Shown here: positions 9,950-39,894 of the stretch, one piece after another
How positions within the stretch are numbered: the stretch's first letter is position 1
Layout of the letters: each line of letters begins with the position of its first letter
Source of the DNA: [Leptolyngbya] sp. PCC 7376
GTDB lineage: Bacteria > Cyanobacteriota > Cyanobacteriia > Cyanobacteriales > MRBY01
DNA length: 64,000 bases
Assembly (NCBI RefSeq): GCF_000316605.1
Contig: NC_019683.1
Span: 976,036 to 1,040,035 of the forward strand
Direction: 5' to 3'
Translations under genes and position numbers: made by a program
The notes under the pieces: model-generated
Database searches by the model: none
What the model was told of the DNA's origin: nothing
Seen by the model: only the letters and a program-made list of their open reading frames with translations

Positions 9950-10389
9950 TAGCAGCGAAGGAGAAGGTTAGGACATAGAACAGAAGGCTATTCTGATGGC
10001 ATCGAACAAATCCTCAGTCTTCTTGATGAGCTTACTTACCTCCTTCTTTAACCTCCCCCAAAACTTCTCTATCTTGTTCAGGTGTGGTGAGTAGGGTGGC
10101 AAAAATATCACTTCACATCCTGCCTTCGCCACCAATGTTTGTATTCTTTCCTTTGGATGAACACTGGCATTATCCAGAATAATAATTTGACCCGGAATCA
10201 ACTCTGGCACTAAGCAATCCTCTACCCATTGGCAAACTAAGGCGCTGTTGGCATAGCCCTCAAATACCATCGGTGCTATCTGCTCTCCCTCTCGCCATCC
10301 TCCAATCACGCTAACTCGTTCTGTACGATGACCTAACTTCTCTGCGATAAACCTCTCTGACTTATGGCAGTAGCCATACCCATAATCTA
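9950..10389 (-). pseudogene. IS630-family transposase remnant (C-terminal half)
   Basis: Encodes LDYGYGYCHKSERF, then VSVIGGWREG, then IILDNASVHPKE and LPPYSPHLNKIEKFWGRLK, the DDE catalytic half of an IS630 transposase. Its outer end tagcagcgaagg joins the IS5-type gene at a TA. On the other side it is cut at 10389 where IS982 begins. Fuller copies are at 15175-16119 and 17904-18850. Confidence 0.8.
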
Positions 10390-20756: not shown

Positions 20757-21769
20757 ACGTGAGTTCTGGATAAGGAAAGAAAAGGAGAAAGCCCATATCG
20801 TGGAAGTTGTAACGAATCCACGGCTTTCTCCCATGTCCAGTCTAGAGGCTCTGTTTTGCCATGTTGATGATTTCTGTCGAATCTTTGAACCCTTATGGCA
20901 TCAAGCGTTACTCAGCTCTGGCAAAAAATACCGTCGCCGTCAGAGAAGCCTCAGTCTGAGTGAGGTGATGACTATTCTCATTGCTTTCCATCAATCTCAC
21001 TATCGAAATTTCAAGCATTTCTATCTCATCAAGGTGAAATGCGATTGGCAACAAGAGTTTCCTCTAGCTGTGAGCTATCAACGCTTTGTGACATGGATAC
21101 TTTCGAGCTTGATTCCTCTCTGTACATATCTGCGACGATGCTTCGGACAATACACTGGTATTAGCTTCATTGATGCCACCAGCATCAAGGTTTGCCATAA
21201 TCGCCGTATCTCTCAACACCGTGTTTTTGAAGGTTGCGCGGCAAGGGGCAAGACTTCGGTGGGATGGTTCTTCGGCTTCAAACTACACCTGGTCATCAAT
21301 GAGCGAGGAGAATTACTCAACGTCTAAGTGACGCCTGGAAATACCGATGACCGCCAACCTATAGTGGAGTTATGGCAAGACTTATGGGGTAAAGTCTTTG
21401 CCGATAAAGGCTATGTCTCACAATCTTTAGCCCAGCATCTTCAAGAGGAACATGAGGTGACCCTAATGGCTAAACCTCGTCGAAATATGAAGCATCATTT
21501 GATGGTTTATCAAGATAAACTTTTTGCTCGTAAGCGGGCTTTGATTGAGACAGTTATTGACCAACTGAAGAACATCTCACAGATTGAACATTCCCGACAT
21601 CGCAGTCCCACAAACTTTTGTGTGAACTTGCTGTGTGGGCTGATTGCTTACTGCCATCAACCCAAAAAACCTTCTTTACAGCTTGATTAGACCTATCATT
21701 CCTTATCCAGAACTCACGTAGATTAGGAATGACTTTTTTCCTGTTGCCCTTATCCCGAACTCACGTTAC
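20757..21769 (+). mobile_element. IS982-family element, right-arm copy B, with a second outer end
   Basis: Mirror of 12258-13267. The element proper is 20757-21719 and a second end lies just outside, finishing near 21766. Confidence 0.75.
20800..21690 (+). pseudogene. IS982 transposase (copy B), nonsense mutation
   Basis: Reads as a full 296-codon IS982 transposase except for TAA at 21325-21327, where the intact relative at 38881 has CAA (NVQVTPGN). It lacks the two frameshifts of the left-arm copy, so the two B copies were inactivated independently after duplication. Confidence 0.88.
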
Positions 21770-22100: not shown

Positions 22101-22646
22101 CTAAGGGACTTTATCTCTACCAGACATCTGGTTTACTGGTTTACCAACTAGAGCTGCTTTCTGAAATGTAGAGCTGCGCCTAATCATGCTTTGGAATGTG
22201 GGTACGCCATTGCTAGTCAATTCATTGCGCATGGTTTCACCTTCTTTGCTCGGATAAGGCAGCACGATAGTTAACAATGCTCAATACTTTGCGTCTCCGA
22301 TATCATTGGCGATCGCTAGCATTGGCTCTAGGCTCACAACGTCTGGAGTTGTTGGCAGGATGAGCAAGTCACAACCCTTCGCTAGTTCCTGTAAGTCATC
22401 GCTGTTGGGTCGAGCTGGGGTATCAATCACTGCATAATCATGACAGGACATGACGCGCATAGCTTGACGCTCATCTGCAACAGTAAAAGGCATCTCGCCT
22501 CTCTGACTCCAATTAACAGCAGTCCGATTTAGGTCACCATCTATGAGTATGGTTTTATGATTTCGGGCAAGGTATGCGGCTATGTGAATAGCGGAAGTTG
22601 ATTTTCCTACACCGCCTTTGTATCCAGTGACAGCAATAATCTGCAT
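22101..22646 (-). pseudogene. parA: ParA-type partition ATPase, split by the same TGA (right arm)
   Basis: Mirror copy of 11378-11923. It keeps the Walker motif KGGVGKST and stops at 22281-22283 after GDAKY, with the same downstream in-frame continuation. One residue differs from the left arm (Ala for Asp in LNRTAVNW). Confidence 0.82.
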
Positions 22647-22671: not shown

Positions 22672-23634
22672 AAGTGAGTTCTGGATAAGGAAAGAAAAGA
22701 AGAAAGCTCATATCGTGGCAGTTGAAACCAATCCACAGCTTTCTCCTATGCTTAGTTTAGACGCTTTATTTTGTGACGTTGACGATTTCTGCCAGGTCTT
22801 TGAACCTCAGTGGCATCAAGAATTACTTAGCTCTTGCAAAAGGTATCGTCACCGTTCTAGAAGCCTAAGCTTGAGTGAGGTGATGACGATACTGATTGCA
22901 TTTCATCAATCTCACTATCGTAATTTCAAGCATTTCTATCTCCTGATGGTGCGACACTATTGGCAAAAAGCCTTTCCCAAAGCAGTGAGTTATCAACGCT
23001 TTGTGGCATGGATGCCCTCCAGCTTAGTGCCTCTATGTGCCTATTTATGTGACTGTTATGGAGATTGCACAGGCATTAGTTTCATTGATGCCACCAGTAT
23101 CAAAGTTTGTCACAATCGCCGTATTGCCCAACATCGAGTCTTTAACGGTCATGCCGCTAGAGGTAAAACCTCTGTTGGGTGGTTCTTTGGCTTCAAACTC
23201 CATCTGGTCATTAATGACCGAGGAGAATTACTTCATGTACAAATCACTCCTGGCAATATTGATGACAGAAAGCCTGTCGTTGAACTGTTACGGAATTTAT
23301 TCGGCAAAGTTTTTGGAGATAAGGGCTATGTGTCCCAAGCTCTGGCACAACATCTCAAAGAAGAACATGATGTGATGTTAATTGCTAAGCCTCGCCGCAA
23401 TATGGAGAATCACTTGATGCTCTGGCAAGATACATTCATCGCTCGTAAACGAGCTTTGATTGAAACCGTGATTGACCAACTGAAGAACATTTCTCAGATT
23501 GAGCACTCTAGACATCGTAGTCCAGCGAACTTCTGTGTCAATTTGCTGTGTGGCTTGATTGCCTATTGTCATCAGCCTAAGAAACCCTCTCTTCAGCTTG
23601 ATTAGAACCTCATTTCCTTATCCCGAACTCACGT
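22672..23634 (+). mobile_element. IS982-family element, right-arm copy A
   Basis: Mirror of 10390-11352, with inverted ends near 22672 (gtgagttctggataagg) and at 23634 (cttatcccgaactcacgt). It lies between parA and further ctggtttt iterons at 23683-23710. This suggests it landed in the original parA upstream region and that the right flank is the older arrangement. Confidence 0.88.
22715..23605 (+). CDS. IS982 family transposase (copy A, right arm)
   Basis: 296 residues, intact, with the same catalytic landmarks as the copy at 10419: SFIDATSIKVCHN, GWFFGFKLHLVINDRGEL, GDKGYVSQ and [12 protein letters not shown]. It differs at residue level from its mirror only at isolated sites (for example NHL for NRL in the NMEN(R/H)LML segment). 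Probably active. Confidence 0.9.
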   Translation: MAVETNPQLSPMLSLDALFCDVDDFCQVFEPQWHQELLSSCKRYRHRSRSLSLSEVMTILIAFHQSHYRNFKHFYLLMVRHYWQKAFPKAVSYQRFVAWMPSSLVPLCAYLCDCYGDCTGISFIDATSIKVCHNRRIAQHRVFNGHAARGKTSVGWFFGFKLHLVINDRGELLHVQITPGNIDDRKPVVELLRNLFGKVFGDKGYVSQALAQHLKEEHDVMLIAKPRRNMENHLMLWQDTFIARKRALIETVIDQLKNISQIEHSRHRSPANFCVNLLCGLIAYCHQPKKPSLQLD

Positions 23635-23875: not shown

Positions 23876-26812
23876 TTAGGCTTGTTTGCCGGGGATTGAC
23901 CAACGTTTTAGTTTGCCAACTGTTACAGGAATGTTGTCGGATACGTCTAAAGTGAAGCGGAAAACTTGCCGTGATCGCCGCCCGTGTTCTGGGTCAAAGA
24001 AGGTGAGTAGTACATCCCAACAATCACTATTGAGACGACAGTAAGGACTTTTTTCTACATCAATGGTGTCGAGTTTGCGGCCAGAGGCGATCGCCTCTGT
24101 AAAAGCACTAGTAGCTTGGAAAGTATTAGTCACCGCAAAATTTAAGGCGCGATCGCGGGAGGTTTGCCCAACGTTATGTAGATCGTAGTAAACCCGATTT
24201 AAGAATGCGGTGAGTCCTTCCCGTAGAGTTTCTGGGTTAACTGTCGCTTCCCCAGTATCTGCCGTTTCATCAAGAACTGTAGCGATCGCATTGTCTACTA
24301 AGCTCGGTATTGTCCAGCCATACATTCCCCGTGGATTGAGGACATTAACGACAGGTATCATTTCTCCAGAAAAAAGTTCTGCGGTGCGATGGGTTCGTCT
24401 TGCAGGAATACTAATACGCTCAATAAATTCTGGGCTATCAATGGGTTCATTTTGGCCAGCCAACATCAATAAGAACATTTCATAGGTGTCGTCGGCAAAG
24501 GGGCCCTTAGGTTCAAGCACATAAATCGTATTTTGGTCTAAACTCAGCGTCCAAATTAGTGAGTGGGCTGCATCGGGATTCTGATCGAGATGTTCGATCA
24601 TCTGTTGTATGTCATAGGGGTTGCCCGGAACCATTACTCCATTCACTTCGGTGGGTGCCATCGTTTGTTTGAATGTATCTCGGCGGGCTTCGTCACCAAA
24701 GTCATACCCTAGAGTGCCCAGAGCATAAACATGACCAGAGAATGCTGTGCTTGGTTTTACGTTGGTGGGTTGCAGATGGTTGGGTGCTGCTGGTGTTGAG
24801 TTGATATCAGGGGATGTAGTGAGAGGAGCTATTTCAGTGGGTTGATGCAGTGAGGGAATGGCCGAGGCGATCGCCCCATCTTGGTGCTCTGTGCGAGTAA
24901 CGCGATCGCCTGCAAAAGAAATAGTGACTCCAGAATCAAACAGTAACTTCATTGCACTCGGTAAATTCACAGTGCCTTGTAGATAGAGGTCTGGCTCTTC
25001 AACTGTTTCAGGATTACAAGGAATAGCTGTATTGAGTAATGCTGCTCGCACTGCCTCTGCATCAATCGGTTTATCCCGCTGCAATTGCAAACTCATTAAT
25101 AAACCACTTAACCCTGTCATCACTGGAGCCGCCACACTAGCTCCCTGGAGGCGAATCGGTGCTTCATTGGCGGGTTGTGCCCCTAGGATGTCGCTACCCG
25201 GAACCATAATTCCTTCTAGAGCACTATTCCCATCACTTGTCCCATGACTATATTTATAGGGAAGACCATCAGATGTTAGAGCACCCACTGATAGAACTCC
25301 CGGTAAAAATGCAGCCATACTGACCGATTCATCTTGGTTGTTACCTGTGGGACTAATCACAAGAACATTTTTTTGCTGACATTTCTCTAGGGCGTTGAGT
25401 AATAAGTCTTTTCCTTCTTCGCTAGAGGTGGGATTATAGGCAGAGCAGTGGACAATATTTGCGTCTAAATCTAGAGCCTGTTCTAGAGCATGGGCTAAGT
25501 TGGCTGGAGTAATAAATTCTTCATCACCAGCAACAGTCAGAGGCACATTAATCACACGGCAGTTCGGTGCTAAACCCGGAGCAGAGGTATTGGGTTGACC
25601 CACGATAGTACTGGTGGCGTGGCAAGCATCGTTATCGCGATAAATACGGCTCAGAGTTTGCTCTGAAAATGTGCTGGTGATCGCCTCGGCTTTAGCTTCT
25701 TGATCAAGGCTTTCATCACTACTAATCGCCTGAAATTTTTGATAATCCTCCATTGCAATGGGTGCTGTGGATTCTTCTCCATTAGGAAAAACTTTTGAGA
25801 TGTCTGCCCCTTCAAAACAAGATAGAGAATGATCTGGATCTCCACCCAGAATTGCAATGGTTATCCGAGGATCGCCAAGGGTTTGGTTCCGTAGCTCCGC
25901 AAGACCCGAAATTCGATCATCAAGATCATGGGGATATAGTGCAGTCGTTTGCTCTGGGACAGTCTCTCTATCAGTCTGTTCAGAAATTGTAATTTCAGAT
26001 ATTGGCGTATTGTCTTCTTTTTCAGATTGTTCTATGGCTTCTTCTACTGGGGTTGTCTCTACTTCTTCTTCTGTTTCATCTTCATGGGAGGCGATCGCCC
26101 CATCCACTGCTGAGTTTTCTGCTAGAACCTCTGAGATACTCTCATTCACTTCAAGCGTTTCAGGTAAAGACAGTTCCGGTCTCTCTGCTGTAACTTCTTC
26201 GCTGTCATCGCCCTCCGTAGAGAGAAAACCTGTCGCCCAGAGTAAATTGAGAAATTGGTAAGCCGTTTCAGGGCCAAGCTGAGGTGGTGGCGTGAGCTGT
26301 TGTAAAGATTGGGGTTGAGCTAGTTGAGCCACAAGAGCACTGGCTCGCCAATCCTGAAGTTCAACTCGATATTTCGAGTGAGGGGATTCCAATACCATTT
26401 TCCCAGAATAGGGAGACTGGGAGACAGATGGCAATAGACTCACTTTGGCCTGACCCCAATTAGGAGAGTTTAGGTCAAGGGCTGCATCTTTTTCTGTCGG
26501 GATGGCGATCGCCAAAGGTAATACAGCGTAATTTAGATATCCTTGCTCATCTAATTGTTGTAGTGTGGCGTCAAACTGTTCTCTAACGTTCTCTTCTTCA
26601 CTATTTTCTAGGGATTGCAATAGTTTATCGTGAGTGAAATGCCCTGCTTGGAGTTGGGCGATCGCCTCTCCAATACCATTAATAATTGGTAAAGCAAAGT
26701 CTGGAGCCGTTGACGGAGAAACCCCCAAAACATAACTATCATCAGTGGTATCAACCTGAACTTTTGGGTTGAGAGAAAGAGTAAAAGGATAGTTGGTCAT
26801 GAAAGTTTGCAC
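23876..26812 (-). CDS. PatG-like cyanobactin protein with degenerate subtilisin triad
   Basis: 978 residues from GTG at 26812; ATG at 26800 (MTNYPFTLSLN) is an equally good start. Residues 1-200 form an alpha/beta domain (VLGVSPSTAP...) resembling the N-terminal part of SagB/PatG-type proteins, but no FMN oxidase core follows. Residues 205-300 are an acidic linker. Residues 315-620 align without gaps with the PatA subtilisin domain, yet catalytic Asp is Gly323 (IAILGGDPD) and catalytic His is Asp395 (NDACHATS). Ser559 (QGASVAAP) and the oxyanion Asn491 remain. The C-terminal ~270 residues share the PatA/PatG accessory domain (ALGTLGYDFGDEARRDTFKQ; CRLNSDCWDVLLTFFDPE). Last gene of the cluster. 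The family call is firm; loss of proteolysis is inferred. Confidence 0.88.
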   Translation of the reverse strand: MQTFMTNYPFTLSLNPKVQVDTTDDSYVLGVSPSTAPDFALPIINGIGEAIAQLQAGHFTHDKLLQSLENSEEENVREQFDATLQQLDEQGYLNYAVLPLAIAIPTEKDAALDLNSPNWGQAKVSLLPSVSQSPYSGKMVLESPHSKYRVELQDWRASALVAQLAQPQSLQQLTPPPQLGPETAYQFLNLLWATGFLSTEGDDSEEVTAERPELSLPETLEVNESISEVLAENSAVDGAIASHEDETEEEVETTPVEEAIEQSEKEDNTPISEITISEQTDRETVPEQTTALYPHDLDDRISGLAELRNQTLGDPRITIAILGGDPDHSLSCFEGADISKVFPNGEESTAPIAMEDYQKFQAISSDESLDQEAKAEAITSTFSEQTLSRIYRDNDACHATSTIVGQPNTSAPGLAPNCRVINVPLTVAGDEEFITPANLAHALEQALDLDANIVHCSAYNPTSSEEGKDLLLNALEKCQQKNVLVISPTGNNQDESVSMAAFLPGVLSVGALTSDGLPYKYSHGTSDGNSALEGIMVPGSDILGAQPANEAPIRLQGASVAAPVMTGLSGLLMSLQLQRDKPIDAEAVRAALLNTAIPCNPETVEEPDLYLQGTVNLPSAMKLLFDSGVTISFAGDRVTRTEHQDGAIASAIPSLHQPTEIAPLTTSPDINSTPAAPNHLQPTNVKPSTAFSGHVYALGTLGYDFGDEARRDTFKQTMAPTEVNGVMVPGNPYDIQQMIEHLDQNPDAAHSLIWTLSLDQNTIYVLEPKGPFADDTYEMFLLMLAGQNEPIDSPEFIERISIPARRTHRTAELFSGEMIPVVNVLNPRGMYGWTIPSLVDNAIATVLDETADTGEATVNPETLREGLTAFLNRVYYDLHNVGQTSRDRALNFAVTNTFQATSAFTEAIASGRKLDTIDVEKSPYCRLNSDCWDVLLTFFDPEHGRRSRQVFRFTLDVSDNIPVTVGKLKRWSIPGKQA

Positions 26813-26902
26813 AAAATAAAATTAAATAAATGACAACAACGGCAATTACTATCAACAGTTAAGTTTGATCACGAACAAGAGGCTATGATTCAGTTCTTTT
26901 GG

Positions 26903-27085
26903 TTAAAACATCGGATAACCATTTGTGAATCCGAGCAATGTTCTCAAGTAATTAGAAGAGGTTATCATTGCTCCATTTACATCAACAGCACCTTCAGGAA
27001 AGTCATTCAGTAGATCATCCTTGATACCACTGGTAATACGAACAACAGGCTTTGTCGTTTGAGGTTGCAGATTTTTCCTTTTCAT
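26903..27085 (-). CDS. Cyanobactin-like precursor peptide 2
   Basis: 60 residues, too short for most gene callers unless the frame is extended upstream. I choose ATG 27085 because gggagaaatcc sits directly before it, as in its sister gene. The leader MKRKNLQPQTTKPVVRITSG resembles PatE-family leaders (M-KKN--PQ---PV-R-T-G), and DDLLNDFPEGAVDVNG sits where the LAELSEE recognition motif would be. From residue 39 the sequence departs completely from its sister and ends NYLRTLLGFTNGYPMF. There is no AYDG-like follower, so the core would be at the very C-terminus. The sister lies 144 bp upstream and the PatG-like gene 90 bp downstream. Confidence 0.8.
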   Translation of the reverse strand: MKRKNLQPQTTKPVVRITSGIKDDLLNDFPEGAVDVNGAMITSSNYLRTLLGFTNGYPMF

Positions 27086-27229
27086 TGGATTTCTCCCGTA
27101 ATTGTTTAACTCGTTAATAGTGATCGCCACTCAATATTGAAATCAAGTACTAAAGAGTTAAGAAGCTCTCTAGTACTCACGAAAGTCGCTTTTTCACTCA
27201 TTTTTAGAGTGTTTTAAGATAGACCATAC

Positions 27230-27412
27230 TTACCACATAAAATCGCCTTTCAAAGCATGGTCCTTAAGCCAGCTCCATACATTAGAAGGAGCGACCTCTC
27301 CATTTACATCGATAGCACTTTCAGGATACTCATTAAGCAAATCATCTTTGAGTCCGGTAGTAATACGAGTAACGGGCTTGGCAGCATGGGGGTGTAGATT
27401 TCTCTTTTTCAT
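27230..27412 (-). CDS. Cyanobactin-like precursor peptide 1
   Basis: 60 residues from ATG 27412, preceded by aaggagaaatcca. The frame is open further upstream to 27514, but the alignment with precursor 2 begins at this Met. Leader MKKRNLHPHAAKPVTRITTG, then LKDDLLNEYPESAIDVNG, then the core region ending NVWSWLKDHALKGDFMW. By eye the two precursors share 25 of the first 38 residues but only 3 of the last 22 (Ser43, Gly56, Met59). Both end G-x-x-M-aromatic. This conserved-leader, variable-core pattern is that of a RiPP precursor family. The prenyl/methyltransferase gene ends 114 bp upstream. Confidence 0.82.
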   Translation of the reverse strand: MKKRNLHPHAAKPVTRITTGLKDDLLNEYPESAIDVNGEVAPSNVWSWLKDHALKGDFMW

Positions 27413-27526
27413 TGGATTTCTCCTTTTATTTATAGTTCTTTGATGGCGGTCGCTTTGGGTTGGGGGCGACTGCCATAGACCCCAGTAAACTAGCAAAAAA
27501 TATATAAAAAACACAAAAATAGTGAT

Positions 27527-29293
27527 TTAGGATAGAGAATAATAGAGATTTATTTTGTTAATAGAATAATTCTCGAACTCCGCTATAGGTATACAGACAG
27601 CTACTTTTTTTAAAGGTTGATGCCGATAGTAAGATTGAACCTTCTCTACCATCTCATTGCCAATGAAATGTAGAAAATGTTTTGAATTAAAGGGATAAAA
27701 ATATAGAATATTGCTTTTGTTTGATGGACTAAAACCAATCTGAAATTGCATACACATCTCCAACAGAGATAAAGCTTTAGCTGGTAGCATATTCCCTAAA
27801 ATTTCTCGATGTGAACCCAGAAAATTTTCGCGATGCAACGTTGGATAAAGTTTTACTTCAGTTCTGTTATTGAAGTGAAAGTCAAATTCCAGAAGGAGAT
27901 TGTCATTAAGAATTAGCGAACGAATTTCATCTTTACTAGAAAAATCACCATATAAATCTAAAGCAGCCTTGACTTTTTCTGGATAATCTCTCAACCAAAC
28001 AAATAACTTTAAACGAGACTCTGAAACTTCAGGCTTTGCATCAACTCCTACTAGAACTCTAAATAGTCGCTTGAAGTTGAAATCTTGTCCAAGAAACTGC
28101 TGTAATGGCTGGTAGTCTAGTTTGATTCCTGCTCGGCTTTCTACCTTCCCAAAGAAATTCAGAATGTCTGTAAGAGCTATATAAAAATTCTTTGTATCAT
28201 TTAAGTGATTGTGATAGACCAGGTTAAAACGACCTGCATGGAGCTTATCACTATCAATTTTACAAGAGCAATCCATATTGCATTTCTCTTGAGATTTCAG
28301 GAATGTCTCAAACTCATTAAGAGGGTAAAAATTCTCTACATTGAAAGCAGCTTTATGTTCATGAAAACACCGGAGATTTTTCTTGATATTATTCTCTTTA
28401 CTCCCATCAATATTCTGAATTATGTTGTAAGCAATATCTTTCTTTATTTTCTGTACATTCGGATTTTGACCATGGTTTAAAGCGGAGTTATTAGAAAAGC
28501 TACTACTTAAGTGAAAGTGTTGGATTTGATGCTGTTGTGCCTTGATTGCTTTTACTTCACCATAGATCAGAGGAGCATCAGGGAATGTCAACTTTGTACT
28601 ATCTAGACGAAATCTTTGAGCAGGCATTTCATTAGCCATATTGCCATTAGATTGAATACTTTGAAATCCTGCTTGGGCGATATAGTCAACCATCATCTTA
28701 AGCGTTGTAGCATGACTAAGATGTGGTGTAGCTTGCTGAGCTTTATAAAGGCCACTTTTTTCGGTAGGAGATAAAGGAGGCTCTTTTAAAAACAGATCCG
28801 TGATGTATAAGATTCCGTTAGGACGCAGTACACGTTTAACTTCTGCCAGCACTTGAGGAATCTGATTGCTGTATTTAATGCTGTCGTTAAAAAACACCAC
28901 ATTAAAAACCCCATCCGGGAATGGCAGATGGTGAAAATCCCCTGGTTGTATTGTGAGGCGATCGCCAAGATTGGCTAGTTGAATTCGACTTTGGGCTTCT
29001 GTCGCTTCCACATCAGAAACAGTCATCCCTTCAATTTTTGTGCCCGGATAAGCTTGAGCAATATGAATGGCAGGAACACCAGCCCCACATCCCGCATCCA
29101 AAATATAGTGACCAGGTTGTATCCCAATGCGACGGGCAAGGGCAAGATTGTGCTCCCTCGCGATAGGTTCAGGTACTAGCCGACTGAAATTAAGATCATT
29201 ACTGTTGTACAAACTGCGAACATCTTCTACCCCAGATGTTTGAGTTGCCTGAGTTTGGAGTGGTTGTACCGAATTGGTCAAATGATTGCGCAT
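27527..29293 (-). CDS. Bifunctional methyltransferase-prenyltransferase of linear cyanobactin type
   Basis: 588 residues from ATG 29293; a TTG five codons upstream is possible. The N-terminal part (to ~265) is a class I SAM methyltransferase: motif I ILDAGCGAGVPA, then IEGMTVSD, FPDGVFNVVFFNDS, and EVKRVLRPNGILYITD. The C-terminal part (from ~305) matches the PatF/LynF/TruF peptide prenyltransferase family: NLVYHNHLNDTKNFYIALTD, then KVESRAGIKLDY and ESRLKLFVWLRDYPEKVKAA, with a late YFYPFNSKHF. This two-domain layout is known from the aeruginosamide/viridisamide pathways (AgeMTPT), where it caps linear peptides with a prenyl group and a methyl ester. Here I infer the same role on the products of the two adjacent precursor genes. 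About 200 bp upstream of precursor 1's start on the same strand. Confidence 0.87.
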   Translation of the reverse strand: MRNHLTNSVQPLQTQATQTSGVEDVRSLYNSNDLNFSRLVPEPIAREHNLALARRIGIQPGHYILDAGCGAGVPAIHIAQAYPGTKIEGMTVSDVEATEAQSRIQLANLGDRLTIQPGDFHHLPFPDGVFNVVFFNDSIKYSNQIPQVLAEVKRVLRPNGILYITDLFLKEPPLSPTEKSGLYKAQQATPHLSHATTLKMMVDYIAQAGFQSIQSNGNMANEMPAQRFRLDSTKLTFPDAPLIYGEVKAIKAQQHQIQHFHLSSSFSNNSALNHGQNPNVQKIKKDIAYNIIQNIDGSKENNIKKNLRCFHEHKAAFNVENFYPLNEFETFLKSQEKCNMDCSCKIDSDKLHAGRFNLVYHNHLNDTKNFYIALTDILNFFGKVESRAGIKLDYQPLQQFLGQDFNFKRLFRVLVGVDAKPEVSESRLKLFVWLRDYPEKVKAALDLYGDFSSKDEIRSLILNDNLLLEFDFHFNNRTEVKLYPTLHRENFLGSHREILGNMLPAKALSLLEMCMQFQIGFSPSNKSNILYFYPFNSKHFLHFIGNEMVEKVQSYYRHQPLKKVAVCIPIAEFENYSINKINLYYSLS

Positions 29294-29357
29294 ATTTTCT
29301 AGCAACAATAACTAGTTAATAAAAATAATCTCGAGTCATAGAGAGAAAAATGGCTGA

Positions 29358-31550
29358 TTAAGACCAGATTCGGCCGCGCCGGAATTTCTTTGGCTGTTCT
29401 TTTTTTCCTGCCTGTTCTTTGGCAACTTCTTTCCACCAATAGGCGTAATCTTCTAAACCGACAGAATTAGTCCGAGGTTGAGCCACTGGTATATGTTTAG
29501 AATTCAGGCGACTCTTTGTGAGTTTTAATTCATCTGTCGTGACCCATGTAACGCCATGTAGTTCAGCATTATTGCCGTTACTGGTTTTATCTTTGGCGAT
29601 CGCCCCTTCCCCTTCATCTAAAGGCCAATATCCCGCTAAACCTGCTTCTTTGCCAGTACAACACTTATTCATTCGAGCTTGGATTTCTTCTGGGGTGCGC
29701 ACATGATCCCAAATACGCAGTTCCGTCATTTCTCCTTGAAAGGCTTGATTTACATCAAAACTGCCACCATAACTATCGGGGTCTTGGCCGAGAATAACAG
29801 CACTTGTTTGGTCGAGGACTAAACCCTTCGCAAGAACAGGGTCGAATACTGATTGTCCATCGATATACAAATGCATCTGACCTGTGGCACTCTCCCAAGT
29901 CACAGCGCAATGTTGCCACTGACCCTTTGTAAAGCTTGCTGATCCTGCTTGGTGTTGGGAATCATGGATATAAAGTTCTATATTTTTGCAATTAAAAACA
30001 ACTAATTCATTGGCACGACTAGGAGAAGATAAAGCAAAAGGAACACCTGCATTCCGGCCATTTGAAGCAACTTTGAGCCAAAATTCTACAGTTAAAGCAT
30101 GAGTGGGACTTGGTGAAAAAGGTTTAACAAGAAAGTAATCTGAAGGGCTTTTTGCATTGACAAATTTCAAGGCAGAACGAGTTTGAGCCATGGAAGAATC
30201 CTCTTGTTTTGCTGGTGAAATATATTTTTGAAAGGGAGCTTCGACTGTTTTCCAACTGCCGCTATGAATTGTGCCGTTATTACCGTTCCCAGTTTTGTCA
30301 TAGGCAATGCTGCCACCACCTTCTTCTAATGGCCAGTAACCCACTAGACCCGTTTCATTACCTGCAAGGCATTTGGTCATATTTTGGGTGATTTCTTGGG
30401 GCGATCGCGCGTAATTCCAAAGCCGTACTTCTGCTATTTGACCTGCAAAAAAGTTTTTGCTGTCTTCTCCATCCAAGTCGCCGCCAATATAGAGTGGCGT
30501 TTTATCAACGACTAATGCAGCACCAGTTGGACATTCGACTTTTAGTTGACCATTGATATAGGTTTTAGCTGTTTTCCCATCGTTAGTTATTGCAACATGA
30601 GTCCATTGTCCATACTGAAAAAGATTGTGGGGAGGATCTACATGGCGGTTTGTATCTTTCGTGGTGTGAAAAATATGAAAAACCCGTTTATCAGTTAACC
30701 AAATATTGTGGCTTCGTCCTGGTTTTCCTGCTACACCAAACCAACCTTTTACTGCTCCAGCAGTCTTGAACCAAGCTTCTGTAGTGTATGTTGAGACCTG
30801 CAAACTGGCATTGTCGGGTATGGAAACATAATCATTTATGCCATTGAACATCAGTGAACTAATTTTAGCCATAGAAGAATCCTCTTGTTTTACTGATGGA
30901 ATATATGGTTTAAAGGGGACATTAACTTGTTGCCAATTTGCGTTATGAATAGTGCCTTTATTGCCGTTACCAGTTTTATCGTGAGCAGTTTTTCCACTTC
31001 CTTCATCTAATGGCCAATAGCTGACTAAATTTGTCTCTTGCCCACTCAACTGGGTATTCATATTTTGTTTGATTTCACTTGCTGTGCGAATACGATTCCA
31101 AATACGTATCTCAGCAAGAAAACCATTGAAAAATAATTGATTTCCTAAGTGGCAACCGATATAAAAATTGGCATTAGTCTGAAGATTTTTGCAGGTACGA
31201 GATGCAACAGATTTTCCATCACAAAAGATCTCTTGATGTTGGCGATCGCGATCATAAACACAGCTCCAATGGTGCCAAACGCTATCTGTATAGGTCTGAC
31301 TTGTGTCCAAATCATCGAAATAAAAGCCTAAGGTAAACACATTGTTTTGTCTAAATCCAATATGTAGACACTGATGATGCCCAGTATTTCCTTGTTGGAG
31401 AGCGACATGAAATTTTTGTTTGCCGATGCGTTTGGCCCAAAATTCGATGGTGAAACTTGTACTATTGAGATCAATGTGATGACCACAATCAATAAACAAA
31501 TTTTGACCATTAAACTTTAATAGACTTAATTTGGAAGACGCTGTGGCCAT
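29358..31550 (-). CDS. Triple LamG-domain protein in the cyanobactin operon
   Basis: 730 residues made of three concanavalin-like LamG_3 jelly-roll domains of about 227 residues, starting at Met1, Met227 and Met454. Each repeat ends with a WPL-EG-G--A-DKTGNGN module (SYWPLDEGSGKTAHDKTGNG in the first). The linkers both contain KQEDSSMA, so each repeat seems to keep the original Met-Ala start of a once single-domain gene. Such domains usually bind carbohydrate or protein surfaces. There is no signal peptide. A basic tail follows (KKEQPKKFRRGRIWS). It lies between the patB-position gene and the prenyl/methyltransferase on the same strand. LamG proteins are not a standard cyanobactin enzyme; role unknown. 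Confidence 0.8.
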   Translation of the reverse strand: MATASSKLSLLKFNGQNLFIDCGHHIDLNSTSFTIEFWAKRIGKQKFHVALQQGNTGHHQCLHIGFRQNNVFTLGFYFDDLDTSQTYTDSVWHHWSCVYDRDRQHQEIFCDGKSVASRTCKNLQTNANFYIGCHLGNQLFFNGFLAEIRIWNRIRTASEIKQNMNTQLSGQETNLVSYWPLDEGSGKTAHDKTGNGNKGTIHNANWQQVNVPFKPYIPSVKQEDSSMAKISSLMFNGINDYVSIPDNASLQVSTYTTEAWFKTAGAVKGWFGVAGKPGRSHNIWLTDKRVFHIFHTTKDTNRHVDPPHNLFQYGQWTHVAITNDGKTAKTYINGQLKVECPTGAALVVDKTPLYIGGDLDGEDSKNFFAGQIAEVRLWNYARSPQEITQNMTKCLAGNETGLVGYWPLEEGGGSIAYDKTGNGNNGTIHSGSWKTVEAPFQKYISPAKQEDSSMAQTRSALKFVNAKSPSDYFLVKPFSPSPTHALTVEFWLKVASNGRNAGVPFALSSPSRANELVVFNCKNIELYIHDSQHQAGSASFTKGQWQHCAVTWESATGQMHLYIDGQSVFDPVLAKGLVLDQTSAVILGQDPDSYGGSFDVNQAFQGEMTELRIWDHVRTPEEIQARMNKCCTGKEAGLAGYWPLDEGEGAIAKDKTSNGNNAELHGVTWVTTDELKLTKSRLNSKHIPVAQPRTNSVGLEDYAYWWKEVAKEQAGKKEQPKKFRRGRIWS

Positions 31551-31649
31551 AAAGCAAACTCCGAAGAAAATAAGGTATGAGTCGCGTTAAAAATTAATTA
31601 GGCGATCGTCATCCCAGCACGAAGACAAGAAAAGGTGACACATCACAAA

Positions 31650-31862
31650 TTAACGGCTATATCTGGAGGCATTGTAAGGAAAATACATCGCATGTTGATG
31701 ACCAGGTGAAAATGCCGCAGGATCGTTGTAATTTGCGCCATGGAGCAAATCCATCCGAATATTCACCAAATCCTCAGTACGACCATGTTCTACATCTACT
31801 GCCAAAGCAGGCTCAATGAAATGGGGTCTTTTGACAGGAGGAGAGAGTTTAGGAAGTTTCAT
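31650..31862 (-). CDS. 70-residue peptide in the patB position
   Basis: Start MKLPKLSPPVKRPHFIEPAL; the frame allows a Met seven codons earlier (31883) but the alignment-like start is at 31862. The middle is VDVEHGRTEDLVNIRMDLL and the end is GANYNDPAAFSPGHQHAMYF followed by PYNASRYSR. It lies 39 bp after patA, exactly where cyanobactin clusters carry the short conserved genes patB/patC of unknown function, and the size fits. The P-rich, K-R-P start also faintly recalls the two precursors' leaders, so a third precursor is possible. I favour PatB-like on position and on the absence of a clear leader/core boundary. Confidence 0.6.
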   Translation of the reverse strand: MKLPKLSPPVKRPHFIEPALAVDVEHGRTEDLVNIRMDLLHGANYNDPAAFSPGHQHAMYFPYNASRYSR

Positions 31863-31901
31863 GATAGTTACTGAGGATTGCACGACTCGTTGTTTATCGT
31901 C

Positions 31902-33839
31902 TTAGTAGGGAGATGACCAGGACTTTACTTCACCTAGAGTGACCGGAATCATATCGCTTACATCAATAGTGAACCGGAAAATTTTCTTGGCACGGCGGCT
32001 ATTTTCAGGGTCAAAAAATTTGAGTTTCACATCCCAACAATCGCTATCCATCCGACAAAAAGGACTTTTCTCCACAGAAATGCTATCGAGTTCCATACCC
32101 TGAGCTACTGCTTGGCTAAAGGTTGAGGCAGCTTGGAAAGCATTGGTCACGGCAAAATTTAAGGCGCGATCTTGAGAAGTGGTGCCGAGATTACGGAGAT
32201 CATAATAAACACGATTCAAGAAGCTGCCGAGGGTACGACGCATAACTTCTTCATCGGCCTCACCTTCACTGGCTGTAACGGTTTCTAGGGCTGCATTGAC
32301 TAAAGTATTAACTTTCCAGCCATAAAGCCCTCGTGTACTTTGGGGTTCAATAATCGGCACAACCTGGCCAGAAAAAAGCTTAACTGTGCGCCCAGTTAAC
32401 ACACCGGGAATGCTGACACGCTCAATATAATTTTCATCATCTTCTGCCTGAATTTGACCAGCAAGCAACTCTTGTAGAGCAATGTAGGCTTCACGGGCAA
32501 AAGGGCCTTTGGGTTCGATGGCGTAGACAGGGGTCAGTTCGATATTTAGTGTCCAGATTAACGACCTAGCTTCCGAAATATCATTGGCTAAATAATCCAC
32601 CATCTGGCGGGCATCATAGGGATTTGCCGGAACCATTGTGCCTCCAATGTCGTAGGCAGGCATGAGCTGCTTGAAGGTATCTCGACGGGCTTCAGAACCA
32701 AAGTCATAACCGAGGGTTCCTAGGGCGTAGGCAAGTTGTTTTTGATCGAGATCACTAGGTGCCTGACTGGGGGTTACTTGGTTGGTCATATTATTGGGTG
32801 TTGATGTGTTTATAGGTGGTGGAGAGGCAAAAGAAGCTGGTATCGCCTCATTTGGGGCAAGGATTTCTTGCTGTGGTGTGGTGATCGCCTCAGGTTCACT
32901 TTCGACTGTGGTTGTGGCATCCGGTGGATGAGAGGTCAAACCGCCATCACAACCGCAGGATGCTTCCACACTAGAGGCTGTGATAGTTTCCAATTCTTGA
33001 GACATCTTTGCTCCTGTTAATAAAGTAAAAGCGCCAGAAAGATTGAGCCTTCCGGCAAGGCAACGGCGATCGCCTTCCGGGATATCATCACCACAAGGCA
33101 ACACGCTTTGCAGAAGAATCTGGCGTATCCGTTGAGGGTTTGGCTCTTCTCCATTCCGCACTTGCTCGCTGAGTAATAAAGCAGCTGTACCAGACACAAT
33201 AGGGGTGGCAAAACTCGTACCATTGAGTTTGTCTGTGCTGCCTCCTGGACTTGCTCCTAGAACATCTAGGCCAGGTGCGAGAATACCTTGATTCTGATAA
33301 ATATCACCCCAGTTACTGAAATCTAGAGGTGTTCCATTGGCATCCATTGCCCCTACGGCTAAGACATTCGACAAAGCTGCAGGTACATGGAGACAGTCAC
33401 AACCATCATTACCAGCTGCGGCAACAAGCAAAACATTCTTTTCTTCGCAGAGACGTACGGCATTTTCTAGCCAGCCTTCCGCCTCACCCATATCTGTTAG
33501 CTGTCCACCACTAAAGTTAATGATGTTAGCCCCTGCATTTACAGCTGTCTCAATGCCCCTAGCCAGATCAAGTTGGCTGACACTACAGCGATCATCAGCA
33601 AATACGGGCACAATTAGTCCATGACAATAAGGTGCAATTCCTTTGACACTGGTATTTGGCTGACCAAAAATAACACTAGCAACGTGAGTTCCATGCTTAG
33701 ACATGTCGCCATCACTACGTGTCTTACCAGAAACTAGACTTGGCAGTGCAGTGAGATTTGCCCCTTTGAAACAAGGGTGTTTTAGATCTACAGGGCCATC
33801 AAGAACAGCAATACAGATACGGTTATCACTTTGAGCCAT
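31902..33839 (-). CDS. patA: PatA-like cyanobactin maturation protease (subtilisin)
   Basis: 645 residues, first gene of the operon. The N-terminal S8 subtilisin domain (8-235) has a full triad: Asp14 in AVLDGPVD, His49 in KHGTHVAS and Ser209 in NGTSFATP, with oxyanion Asn144 in AAAGNDG. A Cys-containing linker (EASCGCDGG) and a Pro/Thr-rich spacer follow. The C-terminal ~280 residues are the accessory domain shared with PatG (ALGTLGYDFGSEARRDTFKQ; CRMDSDCWDVKLKFFDPE). In known pathways PatA cuts the leader from the modified precursor, exposing the core N-terminus. There is no signal peptide, so it acts in the cytoplasm. The intact triad contrasts with the PatG-like partner at 23876. Confidence 0.9.
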   Translation of the reverse strand: MAQSDNRICIAVLDGPVDLKHPCFKGANLTALPSLVSGKTRSDGDMSKHGTHVASVIFGQPNTSVKGIAPYCHGLIVPVFADDRCSVSQLDLARGIETAVNAGANIINFSGGQLTDMGEAEGWLENAVRLCEEKNVLLVAAAGNDGCDCLHVPAALSNVLAVGAMDANGTPLDFSNWGDIYQNQGILAPGLDVLGASPGGSTDKLNGTSFATPIVSGTAALLLSEQVRNGEEPNPQRIRQILLQSVLPCGDDIPEGDRRCLAGRLNLSGAFTLLTGAKMSQELETITASSVEASCGCDGGLTSHPPDATTTVESEPEAITTPQQEILAPNEAIPASFASPPPINTSTPNNMTNQVTPSQAPSDLDQKQLAYALGTLGYDFGSEARRDTFKQLMPAYDIGGTMVPANPYDARQMVDYLANDISEARSLIWTLNIELTPVYAIEPKGPFAREAYIALQELLAGQIQAEDDENYIERVSIPGVLTGRTVKLFSGQVVPIIEPQSTRGLYGWKVNTLVNAALETVTASEGEADEEVMRRTLGSFLNRVYYDLRNLGTTSQDRALNFAVTNAFQAASTFSQAVAQGMELDSISVEKSPFCRMDSDCWDVKLKFFDPENSRRAKKIFRFTIDVSDMIPVTLGEVKSWSSPY

Positions 33840-35180: not shown

Positions 35181-36612
35181 ATGTTTGAGCAGACGTTTAA
35201 AAATATTGATGATGTGCTTCGCAAAGAGGCGGGCTGTGCAACGGAGTTGGATTATGCGGAACAGATTTCGTGGATTCTCTTTCTGAAATATCTGGATGAT
35301 CTTGAAGGCGATCGCCAGAATAAAGCGCTTTTAACAGGGGGAAAATACGAGCCGTTATTGGATGAGGCTTATCGCTGGAAAAGTTGGGCTTATCCAAAGG
35401 ATGAAAAGGGTGAACTGATTAAAACGGCGGCAGTAGGAGATGATCTGATCGCGTTTGTGAGCGGGGAGCTTTTTCCCTATTTGGCGAGTTTTAAAGGCTA
35501 TGCGGAAAAGGGAACGTTTGGGGCGAAGATTGGGGAGATTTTTTCGGGGTTAACGAACAAGTTTCAGAGTGGTTACAATCTGCGGGAAGTTCTGGAAAGT
35601 ATTGATGGACTTCAGTTTCAGACGCAGCAGCAAAAGCATGAGCTTTCGGATTTATATGAGACTCGCATCAAAAATATGGGTAATGCGGGGCGCAATGGTG
35701 GGGAATATTACACGCCGCGTCCGTTGATTCGGGCAATGATTCAGGTGATAAAACCGCAGCTTGGGGAGACGATTTATGATGGAGCGTGCGGTTCGGCGAG
35801 GTTCCTCTGTGAGGCTTATGAATATCTGCGTCCGTTGGTGAAGAGTGCGACGAATTTGGAGAGGCTACAAACTCAGACGCTTTATGAGTCTGGCTTACAT
35901 CATCGGCATCATGAATATGATTTTGCATGGGATTGAAGCGCCGAATATTATCCAGACGAATACGCTGACGGAGGATATTCAGGGGATTCAGGAGAAGGAT
36001 CGCCATGATGTGATTTTGGCTAATCCACCTTTTGGGGGCAAGGAACGAAAGGAGATTAAGCAAAATTTCACGATTCAGACGGGGGAAACGGCGTTTCTTT
36101 TTCTTCAGCATTTTATTAAGAGTCTCAGGGCTGGGGGTCGGGGGGTGATCGTCATCAAAAACACGTTTTTGTCGAATGCGGATAATGCGTCGCGGGCGTT
36201 GCGGCAGGAACTTACGTCGTCTTGTAATCTCCATACGGTGTTGGATTGTCCGGGGGGAACGTTCCTTGGGGCTGAGGTAAAAACGGTGGTGCTGTTTTTT
36301 GAGAAGGGGAAACCGACGGAAAGGGTTTGGTTTTATCAGCTTGATCCGGGACGGAATATGGGGAAAACGAATCCGCTGAATGATGATGATCTAAAGGAGT
36401 TTGTGGCGTTTCAATCGTCTTTCAAGGAGTCGGAACGGTCTTGGTTTGTGGAGATGAAGGATGTGGATCAGGACTCGTTTGATCTGTCGGTAAAGAATCC
36501 GAATGCGCCGGAAGAGGAACCGTTACGGGAACCGGATGTGATCTTAAAAGAGATTGCTGATCTGGATCGGGAAAGTGCAAAGATTTTAGCGGTTATTGGG
36601 GAAATGTTGTGA
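35181..36612 (+). pseudogene. hsdM: Type I restriction-modification methyltransferase HsdM, frameshifted
   Basis: The first frame (35181-35936) carries the HsdM N-terminal domain (MFEQTFKNIDDVLRKEAGC...), GRNGGEYYTPRPLIRAM and the SAM-binding motif DGACGSARFL, where DPACGTAGFL is usual. The second frame, joined near 35890, carries AYIIGIMNMILHGIEAPNI, the catalytic NPPF motif (ILANPPFGGKERKEI) and the C-terminal helices. Between TLY and SLAYIIG the family has a few more residues (G-E---), so roughly 10-13 bases are missing. As written no full-length methyltransferase can be made. hsdS overlaps its stop by 4 bp, the usual operon arrangement. Confidence 0.85.
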
Positions 36613-36786
36613 TGAATTGGGAAGTCAAAAAAATTAGCGAAGTTTGTAAAATAAAGCCTCAAAAGAAAGAATCGAAACAAAATCTTTCTGATGCATCTCT
36701 AGTCTCATTTGTTCCAATGAATAAACTTGGCATTCTTTCAAAAGATCTGATTCTAGAGGAAGAAAAAAGGTTAGAAGATGTTTATA

Positions 36787-37825
36787 TAGCAATTTCTAGT
36801 CGAGTGAGGTGCAATAGCAGCAATGTGTAAACCAGCATCGAATATCATCAAGGGTAATCTTGGAAAAAGCTACCTCAATTGCCTTGTCTAGAGCTAGATA
36901 AGTTCTTGCCCCGATACTTTTCAAGGTACTTTTCAACTTTGACCAGCAATTTTCAATGGGTGAAAAATCTGGAGAATAGGGAGGAAGGTAAATCAACTTA
37001 GCTCCCACGGCCTCAATCATTGTGCGTACTGACTCTCCTAAATGAATCGAACAGTTATCCATCACCACACATGCTCCCGCCCATAAGTTTGGTATTAACT
37101 TCTGGCTGATGAATGCTTCAAAGGTTAATCCATCCGTACTCCCCAGCAGATGATAATTAGCGACCATTCCCTTGAAGCCTAATGCTCCAATCAAAGAAAC
37201 ATTCTTGCCTCGTTTACTGGATTTCGGACTATAAGCTCGTTTCCCTTTCTCAGAACGTGCCCTCAGTCTTGTCATGGCTAAGTTCACGCCCGATTCATCG
37301 ATAAAAATCAAGTTTTTCGCTAGAGTCGCTTGCATTTTCTGCCAAAAATCATATCTGGCTTGTTGCACTCGTTTTGTCGCCTTAAGGTCTGGATAGAATG
37401 TTTTTTTTGAGGCTATATCCCATTCTTCTTAAGGTGCGATGCATGGTGCTATTGGCCACACGGAGACCAGTGCGTTTCTCCATCTCATCACATAGTTCCG
37501 CTAGCGTCGCATCGTTTTTCTTGGTGAGCAACTGGCGCAATATTGTTTGATGCTCTTCGTTTAATTTGGGAGGTGTTTGTTGGCTTCGTTTTTTCGGAGC
37601 AATCGACCCTGTCAGTCGTTTTTGGTCGAGGAGCTTTTGTACAAAACTTTTCGCCACTCCAAATTGTCGGGCAAGACTACTTTGACTCACACCACCCCTT
37701 TCGTAGGCATCCACTATTTTCTGTCTTAAGTCTAATGAGTAGGCTTTCGGCAAGATGCTACTTTCTTCCTCACCAGTCAACTCACCTATACTACTTCATA
37801 CACCTTGCTAGGCTGAAATTTGCTG
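36787..37825 (-). mobile_element. IS630-family element in hsdS, TA duplication intact
   Basis: 1039 bp, different from the IS630 type in the palindrome. Ends tagcaatttctag and its imperfect complement in gctgaaatttgctg, with TA on both sides (36785-36786 and 37826-37827). Clean excision would restore hsdS. Confidence 0.88.
36796..37780 (-). CDS. IS630 transposase encoded in two frames across an A8 run
   Basis: ORF A (37780-37382) holds the HTH half: KAYSLDLRQKIVDAYERGGV, then SQSSLARQFGVAKSFVQKLL. ORF B (to 36796) holds the DDE half: KNLIFIDESGVNLAMTR, CVVMDNCSIHLGE, LPPYSPDFSPIENCWSKLK. The frames meet at AAAAAAAA near 37402-37409. Reading across it in the other frame gives LKKTFYPDLKATKRVQQARY, as expected for a fused protein. 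Two-ORF IS630 elements often use slippage here, so this may be programmed rather than a mutation; a one-base insertion is the alternative. Confidence 0.75.
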
Positions 37826-38837
37826 TAAAGGCTATGTTTATTTTGCTGACAATGATGTTTTACTTGCAAAAATAACTCCATGCTTTGAAAACGGTAAACT
37901 AGGTATTGCGAGAAATCTAAAAAATGGCGTTGGGTTTGGGTCTAGTGAATATGTCGTTTTTCGTTCAAAGGGTGAGATAGATCCAGAATATCTATTTTAT
38001 TTTCTCTCACAGGATTGTTTTCGTATTGAAGGCGCACGCGTAATGTCTGGAGCTGTAGGACATAAGCGAGTTCCAAAAGAATTTATCGAAAACTATTTAA
38101 TTCCTGTTCCACCACTTGAAGAGCAGAAGCAGATTGTCAATATTTTAGATGAGGTTTTTGAGGTGATCGCCCTTGTAGAAGACAACACCAAAAGAAATCT
38201 AGCTAATGCCGATGAACTCTTCGAGAGCTATCTAAACAAAATTTTCACAGAGAAAGAGGATGAATGGATTGAAGAAAAATTAGGCACAATCGCTGATTTT
38301 AGAAATGGTCTTAACTTCACAAAAAGCAGCAGAGGTGAAGTCATTAAAATTGTTGGGGTAAAAGATTTTCAAAATCACTTTTTTATTCAGGATAATCAAT
38401 TGGAATCGGTGACAATAGATTCTACTATTAAAGAAATAGATATTCTTAAGGAAGGAGATATTTTGACTGTTCGTTCTAATGGAAATAAAGAGCTAATTGG
38501 ACGTTGTATACTTGCAAATAAGCTCACAGAGAAAACATCTCATTCTTGGTTTACAATTAGAATTAAAATCACGAAAGATAATGTTTTCCCACAATTTTCA
38601 GTCTATTTTTTGAAATCCAGTAAGTTGCGAAAAAAATTGACTGAAAGTGGTGGTGGAATTAACATTAGTAGCCTAAATCAAAAAAGCTTATCATTGCTGG
38701 AATTAACTTTTCCTTCTTTAGAAAAACAAAAAGTAATTGTCGAACAAATAAAGCAGTTATCGATTGAGACGCAAAAGCTCGAAAGTATCTATCAGCGCAA
38801 ATTAGAAGTCCTTGCCGAGTTAAAACAATCTATCCTA

Positions 38838-39894
38838 ACGTGAGTTCTGGATAAGGAAAGAAAAGGAGAAAGTCCATATCGTGGAAGTTGTAACGAATCC
38901 ACGGCTTTCTCCCATGTCCAGTCTAGAGGCTCTGTTTTGCCATGTTAATGATTTCTGCCAAGTCTTTGAACCCTTATGGCATCAAGCGTTACTCAGCTCT
39001 GGCAAAAAATACCGTCGCCGTCAGAGAAGCCTCAGTCTGAGTGAGGTGATGACTATTCTCATTGCTTTCCATCAATCTCACTATCGAAATTTCAAGCATT
39101 TCTATCTCATCAAGGTGAAATGCGATTGGCAACAAGAGTTTCCTCTAGCTGTGAGCTATCAACGCTTTGTGACATGGATACTTTCGAGCTTGATTCCTCT
39201 CTGTACATATCTGCGACGATGCTTCGGACAATACACTGGTATTAGCTTCATTGATGCCACCAGCATCAAGGTTTGCCATAATCGCCGTATCTCTCAACAC
39301 CGTGTTTTTGAAGGTTGCGCGGCAAGGGGCAAGACTTCGGTGGGATGGTTCTTCGGCTTCAAACTACACCTGGTCATCAATGAGCGAGGAGAATTACTCA
39401 ACGTCCAAGTGACGCCCGGAAATACCGATGACCGCCAACCTATAGTGGAGTTATGGCAAGACTTATGGGGTAAAGTCTTTGCCGATAAAGGCTATGTCTC
39501 ACAATCTTTAGCCCAGCATCTTCAAGAGGAACATGAGGTGACCCTAATGGCTGAACCTCGTCGAAATATGAAGCATCATTTGATGGTTTATCAAGATAAA
39601 CTTTTTGCTCGTAAGCGGGCTTTGATTGAGACAGTTATTGACCAACTGAAGAACATCTCACAGATTGAACATTCCCGACATCGCAGTCCCACAAACTTTT
39701 GTGTGAACTTGCTGTGTGGGCTGATTGCTTACTGCCATCAACCCAAAAAACCTTCTTTACAGCTTGATTAGACCTATCATTCCTTATCCAGAACTCACGT
39801 TACATAGATAAAATTCCAAACAAACTCTTGATTTATAGGAGTTTCAGTCTAACTTGTCGGAATTTCATCCTAATTCCTTAACCCGAACTCACGT
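38838..39894 (+). mobile_element. IS982 element plus 94-bp tail, moved as one unit
   Basis: A 7-bp direct repeat tatccta (38831-38837 and 39895-39901) brackets not just IS982 (38838-39800) but also a 94-bp tail that finishes in a second IS982-type end (ttaacccgaactcacgt at 39878-39894). The tail matches, with a few changes, the sequence at 13388-13464 and its mirror copy. So the transposase used the outer end and carried neighbouring DNA. Confidence 0.82.
38881..39771 (+). CDS. IS982 family transposase (B-type, intact)
   Basis: 296 residues with no stop or frameshift. Landmarks SFIDATSIKVCHN, TSVGWFFGFKLHLVINERGE, FADKGYVSQ and [14 protein letters not shown] are all present. It is the intact parent type of the two broken B copies (12338 and 20800), so it can supply transposase to them. 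It starts with GTG at 38881 in the context atatcgtggaagtt. Confidence 0.9.
   Translation: MEVVTNPRLSPMSSLEALFCHVNDFCQVFEPLWHQALLSSGKKYRRRQRSLSLSEVMTILIAFHQSHYRNFKHFYLIKVKCDWQQEFPLAVSYQRFVTWILSSLIPLCTYLRRCFGQYTGISFIDATSIKVCHNRRISQHRVFEGCAARGKTSVGWFFGFKLHLVINERGELLNVQVTPGNTDDRQPIVELWQDLWGKVFADKGYVSQSLAQHLQEEHEVTLMAEPRRNMKHHLMVYQDKLFARKRALIETVIDQLKNISQIEHSRHRSPTNFCVNLLCGLIAYCHQPKKPSLQLD

Follow-up and report, generated by a model that had tools for sequence, protein, structure and literature searches.

Leptolyngbya sp. PCC 7376 and its orphan cyanobactin cluster: a candidate linear, azole-free pathway with PatG as a putative non-catalytic adaptor

The window analysed here is a 64-kb stretch of the genome of [Leptolyngbya] sp. 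PCC 7376 (complete, 5,125,950 bases, one contig), and it carries a cyanobactin operon, one minus-strand unit encoding PatA, PatB, PatC, a fused methyltransferase-prenyltransferase (MT-PT), two precursors and PatG. From sequence comparisons we propose, with moderate confidence, that this operon specifies a linear, azole-free cyanobactin pathway in which PatG would be a non-catalytic adaptor. The cluster is the known orphan cyanobactin cluster of this strain: approximately 11.3 kb with a bimodular methyltransferase-prenyltransferase were published in 2013 by Leikoski and colleagues, whose work also covered the clusters of M. aeruginosa PCC 9432 and O. nigro-viridis PCC 7112 (PMC4663559). The original prediction on this DNA had named a published pathway with the same layout among the conditions that would refute it; for the cluster as such this condition applies, and as it is already in print, its novelty is lower than was claimed. 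Added here are the domain-by-domain fate of PatG, the mosaic origin of the cluster and an argument that places the cut site by leader length; these are absent from the accessible parts of the literature found, the original report of 2013 not being among the texts covered. In that literature the PatA sequence of PCC 7376 is treated in PMC3877893, the enzymes of the cluster are described only in PMC4663559, and no product is named in the accessible text.

Gene families were assigned with NCBIfam and Pfam profiles, and the scores used exceed the curated cut-offs except those of TIGR03678 (precursors) and HTH_57 (PatG). The features are:

31902-33839, minus strand: PatA-type N-terminal protease (subtilisin plus PatG_D/PatG_C domain of unknown function, DUF); TIGR03895, 933 bits (cut-off 421)
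31650-31883, minus strand: PatB; TIGR04220, 112 bits (cut-off 55)
29358-31550, minus strand: PatC with three LamG (concanavalin-like) domains; PF13385 in three stretches
27527-29308, minus strand: fused MT-PT; methyltransferase (MT) at approx. residues 1-260, LynF/TruF/PatF prenyltransferase (PT) at approx. residues 309-592
27230-27412, minus strand: precursor E1, 60 aa; PF19155, 32.8 bits (cut-off 25); TIGR03678, 19.1 of 39.6 bits, below cut-off
26903-27085, minus strand: precursor E2, 60 aa; PF19155, 33.6 bits (cut-off 25); TIGR03678, 25.8 of 39.6 bits, below cut-off
23876-26812, minus strand: PatG-type protein that lacks the flavin mononucleotide (FMN) oxidase domain and has a dead triad; TIGR03895, 672 bits
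26210-26812, minus strand: PatG residues 1-201, putatively retained double peptide-clamp region of the oxidase, like a RiPP (ribosomally synthesized and post-translationally modified peptide) recognition element (RRE); ThcOx and HTH_57 matches, fold match
24890-25960, minus strand: PatG residues 285-641, macrocyclase-like subtilisin domain with accelerated evolution; alignments, relative-rate tests
23879-24760, minus strand: PatG residues 685-978, C-terminal DUF with normal rate; match to 4uvq (E = 7.9e-128), relative-rate tests

The genes named by the original prediction thus lie on the minus strand where it had placed them, with their families confirmed by NCBIfam and Pfam, and chance or misannotation is ruled out by family scores above the curated cut-offs. 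PatA, whose best match in the PDB is 4h6v (E = 1.3e-140), keeps D, H and S of its triad in the alignment and is predicted to remove the precursor leader.

In PatG, by contrast with PatA, alignment to the structures 4h6x, 4aks and 4akt places Gly323 at the catalytic Asp and Asp395 at the His (the residue that is Ala in 4akt), Ser559 being kept; the protein therefore matches the family of the active macrocyclase/protease, but with a triad of Gly323, Asp395 and Ser559. We compared this with 80 other PatA/PatG proteins from 60 related loci (L-numbers below; a selection from the search matches, not all of them): the triad reads D, H, S in 75 and E, H, S in three, and is incomplete in two that are cut short with one position missing. 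The His is kept in 80 of the 80, the two incomplete proteins included. A literature search on cyanobactins, PatG and the catalytic triad, judged by titles and the beginnings of abstracts, gave no dead PatG among the papers listed. The three E, H, S proteins all come from fused MT-PT clusters, being the PatGs of L057, L058 and L059, in which Glu stands for the catalytic Asp with His and Ser kept, apparently a milder step of the same kind.

The FMN oxidase domain of PatG is missing after approximately residue 201, where the first large alignment gap lies. A search with PF02624 found no YcaO in the whole 5.13 Mb genome, whereas the same search was positive in 5 of 14 control genomes; this supports the predicted absence of YcaO/PatD and speaks against a YcaO acting from elsewhere in the genome. 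Genome-wide we counted one PT, one PatA, one PatG and two precursors, and no second copy of any of these families was found elsewhere in the complete genome. Neither precursor contains Cys. Of the C-terminal thiazole route of linear cyanobactins (PatD heterocyclase plus thiazoline oxidase), this cluster thus has no YcaO, no FMN oxidase domain and no precursor Cys. Taken together, the missing YcaO and FMN oxidase domain, the lost PatG triad and the lack of followers in the precursors (see below) make azoles and PatG macrocyclisation unlikely, and the main chemistry of the original prediction (linear, no azoles, no ring closure by PatG) is reasonable.

The statement that PatG has no oxidase holds for the FMN domain, but the N-terminal clamp part remains: the ThcOx profile PF22767 matches residues 137-200 (39.8 bits, cut-off 27.7), HTH_57 matches residues 7-112 with 20.4 bits, under its cut-off of 29.1, and residues 45-167 are similar to CyaGox/ThcOx. 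The peptide clamps of ThcOx are residues 7-86 and 87-194 (PMC5108345), and the truncation point at approximately 201 falls near the end of the second such clamp. In a fold search the best match of the modelled clamp region is ThcOx (E = 2.5e-9); RRE domains such as 8t19 and 5v1v rank after it with non-significant E-values. From profiles and model, we read PatG as having lost the catalytic oxidase domain and kept the leader-clamp region.

The rates of evolution differ from domain to domain. Relative-rate tests of PatG took each of three relatives as sister with each of five outgroups, giving 15 pairings that are not independent, as the outgroups are related. For the protease, changes unique to PCC 7376 number 53-72 versus 14-25 unique to the sister (chi2 14.1-32.2) in all 15 pairings; for the DUF the corresponding counts are 20-28 versus 17-28 (chi2 0.0-1.9). 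In the control pair L092 versus L135, chi2 does not exceed 2.6 in the protease and the clamps and ranges over 0.1-6.1 in the DUF. Likewise, the PCC 7376 branch measures 0.51 on the protease tree, versus a median of 0.07, and 0.21 on the DUF tree, versus 0.12. By these measures constraint is relaxed on the PatG protease and normal on the PatG DUF, a domain with a novel fold that, as of 2014, had occurred in every characterised cyanobactin pathway (PMC4259220). PatA is not significantly accelerated (chi2 <=3.6, 10 comparisons).

The main rival reading is that of a decaying pathway: a horizontally acquired cluster would have lost PatD, oxidase and macrocyclase, and the genes still present would yield no peptide. 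However, the seven reading frames are all intact, unlike those of the inactive pir cluster with its insertion sequence (IS) insertions and frameshifts (PMC3428304). The relaxed PatG protease and the long PT branch fit decay, as do the occurrence of PatA and MT-PT in none of five other genomes of the genus and a neighbourhood with several IS transposases and broken restriction genes; the lack of significant acceleration in PatA and in the PatG DUF does not. The precursors speak against it too. Between E1 and E2 the leader has dN 0.19 and dS 0.83 over 37 codons, whereas the tails share only 3 of 22 residues and are saturated; judged from these values the leader is under purifying selection between the paralogues, part of which may predate the losses. 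On balance we hold decay to be possible, though rather unlikely.

As predicted originally, neither precursor has an acidic follower, E1 ending in GDFMW and E2 in GYPMF. Such a follower ends 52 of the 62 precursor-like open reading frames in the first 40 related loci read; among the ten without it, that of L064 and one in L079 look spurious and four in L086 stand beside follower-bearing ones. Counted to Ser43, the leader has 43 aa; with cut sites placed by eye, three PatD-type leaders measure 42 aa and three PatD-less ones 31 aa. PatA-like enzymes cleave after G(L/V)E(A/P)S (PMC10885120), and weak PatA-like/RSII-like motifs, GEVAPS in E1 and GAMITS in E2, precede the predicted cut. From leader length and these motifs we infer 17-residue tails: E1 would consist of leader 1-43 and the core NVWSWLKDHALKGDFMW, running up to the stop codon, and E2 of leader 1-43 and the 17-residue core SNYLRTLLGFTNGYPMF, both boundaries being predicted.

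A core of the usual size could instead be made from the last four to five residues, DFMW or YPMF after a shared Gly. Linear cyanobactins known so far comprise 3 to 5 residues (PMC4663559), and E1 and E2 do agree in Gly at -5 and in Met at -2, and both end in an aromatic residue; yet no PatA-like motif precedes that Gly, and a cut there would leave a leader of 56 aa, more than in the six other leaders measured, which have 31 or 42 aa. So short a core is improbable. Ring closure of the peptide by PatA, or by PatG without its Asp and His, is very improbable indeed: although PatG keeps its Ser and residues in place of the macrocyclase insert, there is no follower to cleave, His is replaced by Asp at the general base and no other PatG was found in the genome.

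We return to the linear pathway and to its tailoring enzyme. The MT half has methyltransferase matches (e.g. PF08241 at residues 70-169) and the PT half matches TIGR04445 at residues 310-591 (341 bits, cut-off 140). The former is 57-59% identical to viridisamide-type MT-PTs and keeps 33 of the 37 columns invariant in seven relatives; the latter keeps 10 of 11 columns conserved in 39. The PCC 7376 PT and the other fused PTs fall in one eight-row clade (100/100) but are not sisters within it: the PT of PCC 7376 is sister to that of L062 (96/90), near L061 and L060, and the remaining fused PTs pair with L063 (98/97). Forcing all fused PTs into one clade costs 13.5 units of log-likelihood (approximately unbiased test, p = 0.0416), a weak result because the group was chosen after the tree had been seen. 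In nine-row trees PatG groups with L092, L135 and L136 (100/100 for the protease, where the long PCC 7376 branch weakens the placement, and 100/99 for the DUF). On these comparisons the cluster is a mosaic, in that PatG, MT half and PT half have different closest relatives. The original prediction knew the fused enzyme from linear pathways; on the tree, the PT half has its nearest relatives among unfused PTs from clusters that lack PatD.

N-terminal prenylation, borrowed from aeruginosamide and viridisamide, was therefore overstated. Trp occurs in the precursors that stand beside the nearest PTs (L061, L062 and one of L060), so that side-chain prenylation is a possibility; the prenylated position may plausibly be either the N-terminus or a side chain. 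Methylation of the C-terminus, also predicted, is plausible at most, from the identity of the MT half; aeruginosamide B was the first RiPP reported with an O-methylated C-terminus (PMC11285071). A residue of the PT pocket is Gln in the PCC 7376 enzyme, in 8ye0 and in two viridisamide-type MT-PTs, from which we would guess a C5 prenyl donor. This residue, Phe in PagF and Gly in PirF and LimF, is one that we take to have a role in donor size. Literature searches naming SmiF, DciF, OcyF, FjoF or 8YE0 gave, among the matches listed and judged by titles, unrelated papers and no prediction of the PT acceptor.

Over 388 genomes of the order and among the matches listed, MT and PT share one open frame only in G402, G415, G578 and PCC 7376; another six long frames that match an MT contain no PT, and 14 plus 61 genomes of two families yielded no further fused MT-PT. 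At the level of the phylum, 16 of 386 genomes exceed the TIGR04445 cut-off, and only in PCC 7376 does the PT lie in a frame near 600 aa. A viridisamide-like cluster of Planktothricoides sp. SR001 (L104) has been published (PMC5460452). Plasmid records held no near DNA match to the cluster; at the protein level a single match turned up, which concerns the MT half and comes from Gloeothece verrucosa PCC 7822.

The original prediction had suggested looking for other clusters with a fused MT-PT but no PatD, and all three other fused clusters have a PatD of approximately 776 residues. These viridisamide/aeruginosamide-type clusters (L057 in G402, L058 in G415, L059 in G578) have PatA, PatB, PatC, fused MT-PT and PatG in common with PCC 7376; they differ by PatD, a PatG of 1303-1316 residues with oxidase and an E-H-S triad, follower-bearing cassettes, an additional PT gene and an identity of only 35-36% in the PT half. 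The closest PatA and PatG belong instead to L092 (G591), L135 (G848) and L136 (G909), patellamide-type by a label inferred from gene content: the PatA DUF is 89-90% identical to those of L092 and L135, and PatG is 73-77% (DUF) and 62-65% (protease) identical to the patellamide-type proteins. However, these clusters keep oxidase and triad, L092 and L135 keep PatD, which in L136 is a fragment where the contig ends, the L092 precursors have followers, and no MT half was found in the three loci.

Closest in PT are L060, L061 and L062 (anacyclamide/prenylagaramide-like, again a label inferred), which, as in PCC 7376, have no PatD in the locus. The PatG of L060 and L061 also lacks the oxidase, but it is short (749 and 705 aa, respectively), with an intact triad and no clamp remnant; L062 has no PatG in the stretch read. 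Leaders of L061 and L062 measure 31 aa, and this group has the followers FAGDDAE/FAGDSDE. Muscoride is likewise linear without PatG macrocyclisation, but there the YcaO protein MusD removes a C-terminal recognition sequence (PMC10885120), whereas the present cluster has neither YcaO nor such a sequence.

These elements can be arranged in a scheme. The leader would be bound by the clamp region that PatG kept after loss of the oxidase, and PatA would cut after Ser43. The released tail would end at the precursor's own stop codon, so that no C-terminal trimming is needed, and PatG protease and PatD would be dispensable. The fused enzyme would then O-methylate the free C-terminus and prenylate the peptide, probably with a C5 unit, either on the N-terminus or on a side chain. 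PatG would persist as a non-catalytic adaptor, with the C-terminal DUF, because of the domain-specific rates, as its constrained working part. In its full form, with a dead PatG (clamp plus DUF) handing follower-less precursors to PatA and the mosaic MT-PT to yield 17-residue linear, methylated, singly prenylated peptides, the scheme is tentative.

Several points weigh against this reading. The model of PatG residues 1-205 has a mean pLDDT (predicted local distance difference test) of 66.7, i.e. middling confidence, its template modelling (TM) score to ThcOx is 0.47, and a full-length PatG model (pLDDT 41) was uninformative and discarded. The site of the second ThcOx clamp is thought to be buried and not to bind leader (PMC5108345), and the PatG DUF bound no linear substrate in vitro (PMC4259220). 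The clamp region evolves somewhat faster than in relatives (19-34 changes versus 14-19, chi2 0.0-6.5), changes unique to PCC 7376 outnumber those of the sister in 10 of 10 PatA comparisons, if non-significantly, and the PT branch is long (0.83). The motifs before Ser43 are weak, 17-residue cores are far longer than the known linear cyanobactins, and in 2013 the product was not predictable, the precursors being without recognisable cleavage sites (PMC4663559). PatB and PatC are non-essential in other systems (PMC4663559). Finally, neither a product nor a transcript or an enzyme assay is reported for the PCC 7376 cluster in the literature found.

If the adaptor reading is true, the two known activities of PatG are separated from the role of its conserved C-terminal DUF, which would act independently of proteolysis and oxidation. 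A PatG without oxidase and triad, in which the DUF is still constrained, is a natural test of what the leftover binding parts do. Linear cyanobactins, so far 3-5 residues long and ending in a thiazole, would then also include longer peptides free of rings, the stop codon directly encoding their C-terminus.

Turning to the remaining genes, the LamG protein, which the original prediction listed as a triple LamG protein, is PatC, because a PatC_TenC_TruC domain (TIGR04447) lies at its C-terminus (residues 698-730, 56.6 bits, cut-off 30). PatC-LamG fusions recur in nine of the 60 loci (L063, L065, L067, L071, L140, L141, L144, L145 and L146), and domain and recurrence together rule out a novel operon member; a literature search combining cyanobactin and LamG found nothing. 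Other cyanobactin clusters contain methyltransferases fused to a PatA/PatG-type C-terminal DUF (L063:12760-14433, L073:8760-11159, L074:7655-9331 and 9520-11211), and one such fusion lies on a plasmid of Gloeothece verrucosa PCC 7822; the DUF therefore also travels with methyltransferases. In L161:202-2634, protease, methyltransferase and DUF matches are consecutive in one stretch.

An Rfam search of the window gave no match at gathering cut-offs. Five related DDE-transposase-like genes lie in it, at 10419-11309 (minus strand), 20800-21690 (plus), 22715-23605 (plus), 38881-39771 (plus) and 46723-47613 (minus). Among them are two pairs with DNA identities of 97.8% and 99.2%, the copy at 46723 is 62-66% identical to the others, and that at 20800-21690 is split in two reading frames. 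Adjoining PatA is a type I restriction locus (35181-38843, plus strand) with hsdM in two overlapping frames and an hsdS region interrupted by a DDE_3 transposase (36796-37780, minus strand); a helicase/hsdR-like gene occupies 40723-41700. A ParA-like fragment of 121 aa (22281-22646, minus strand) also adjoins the operon.

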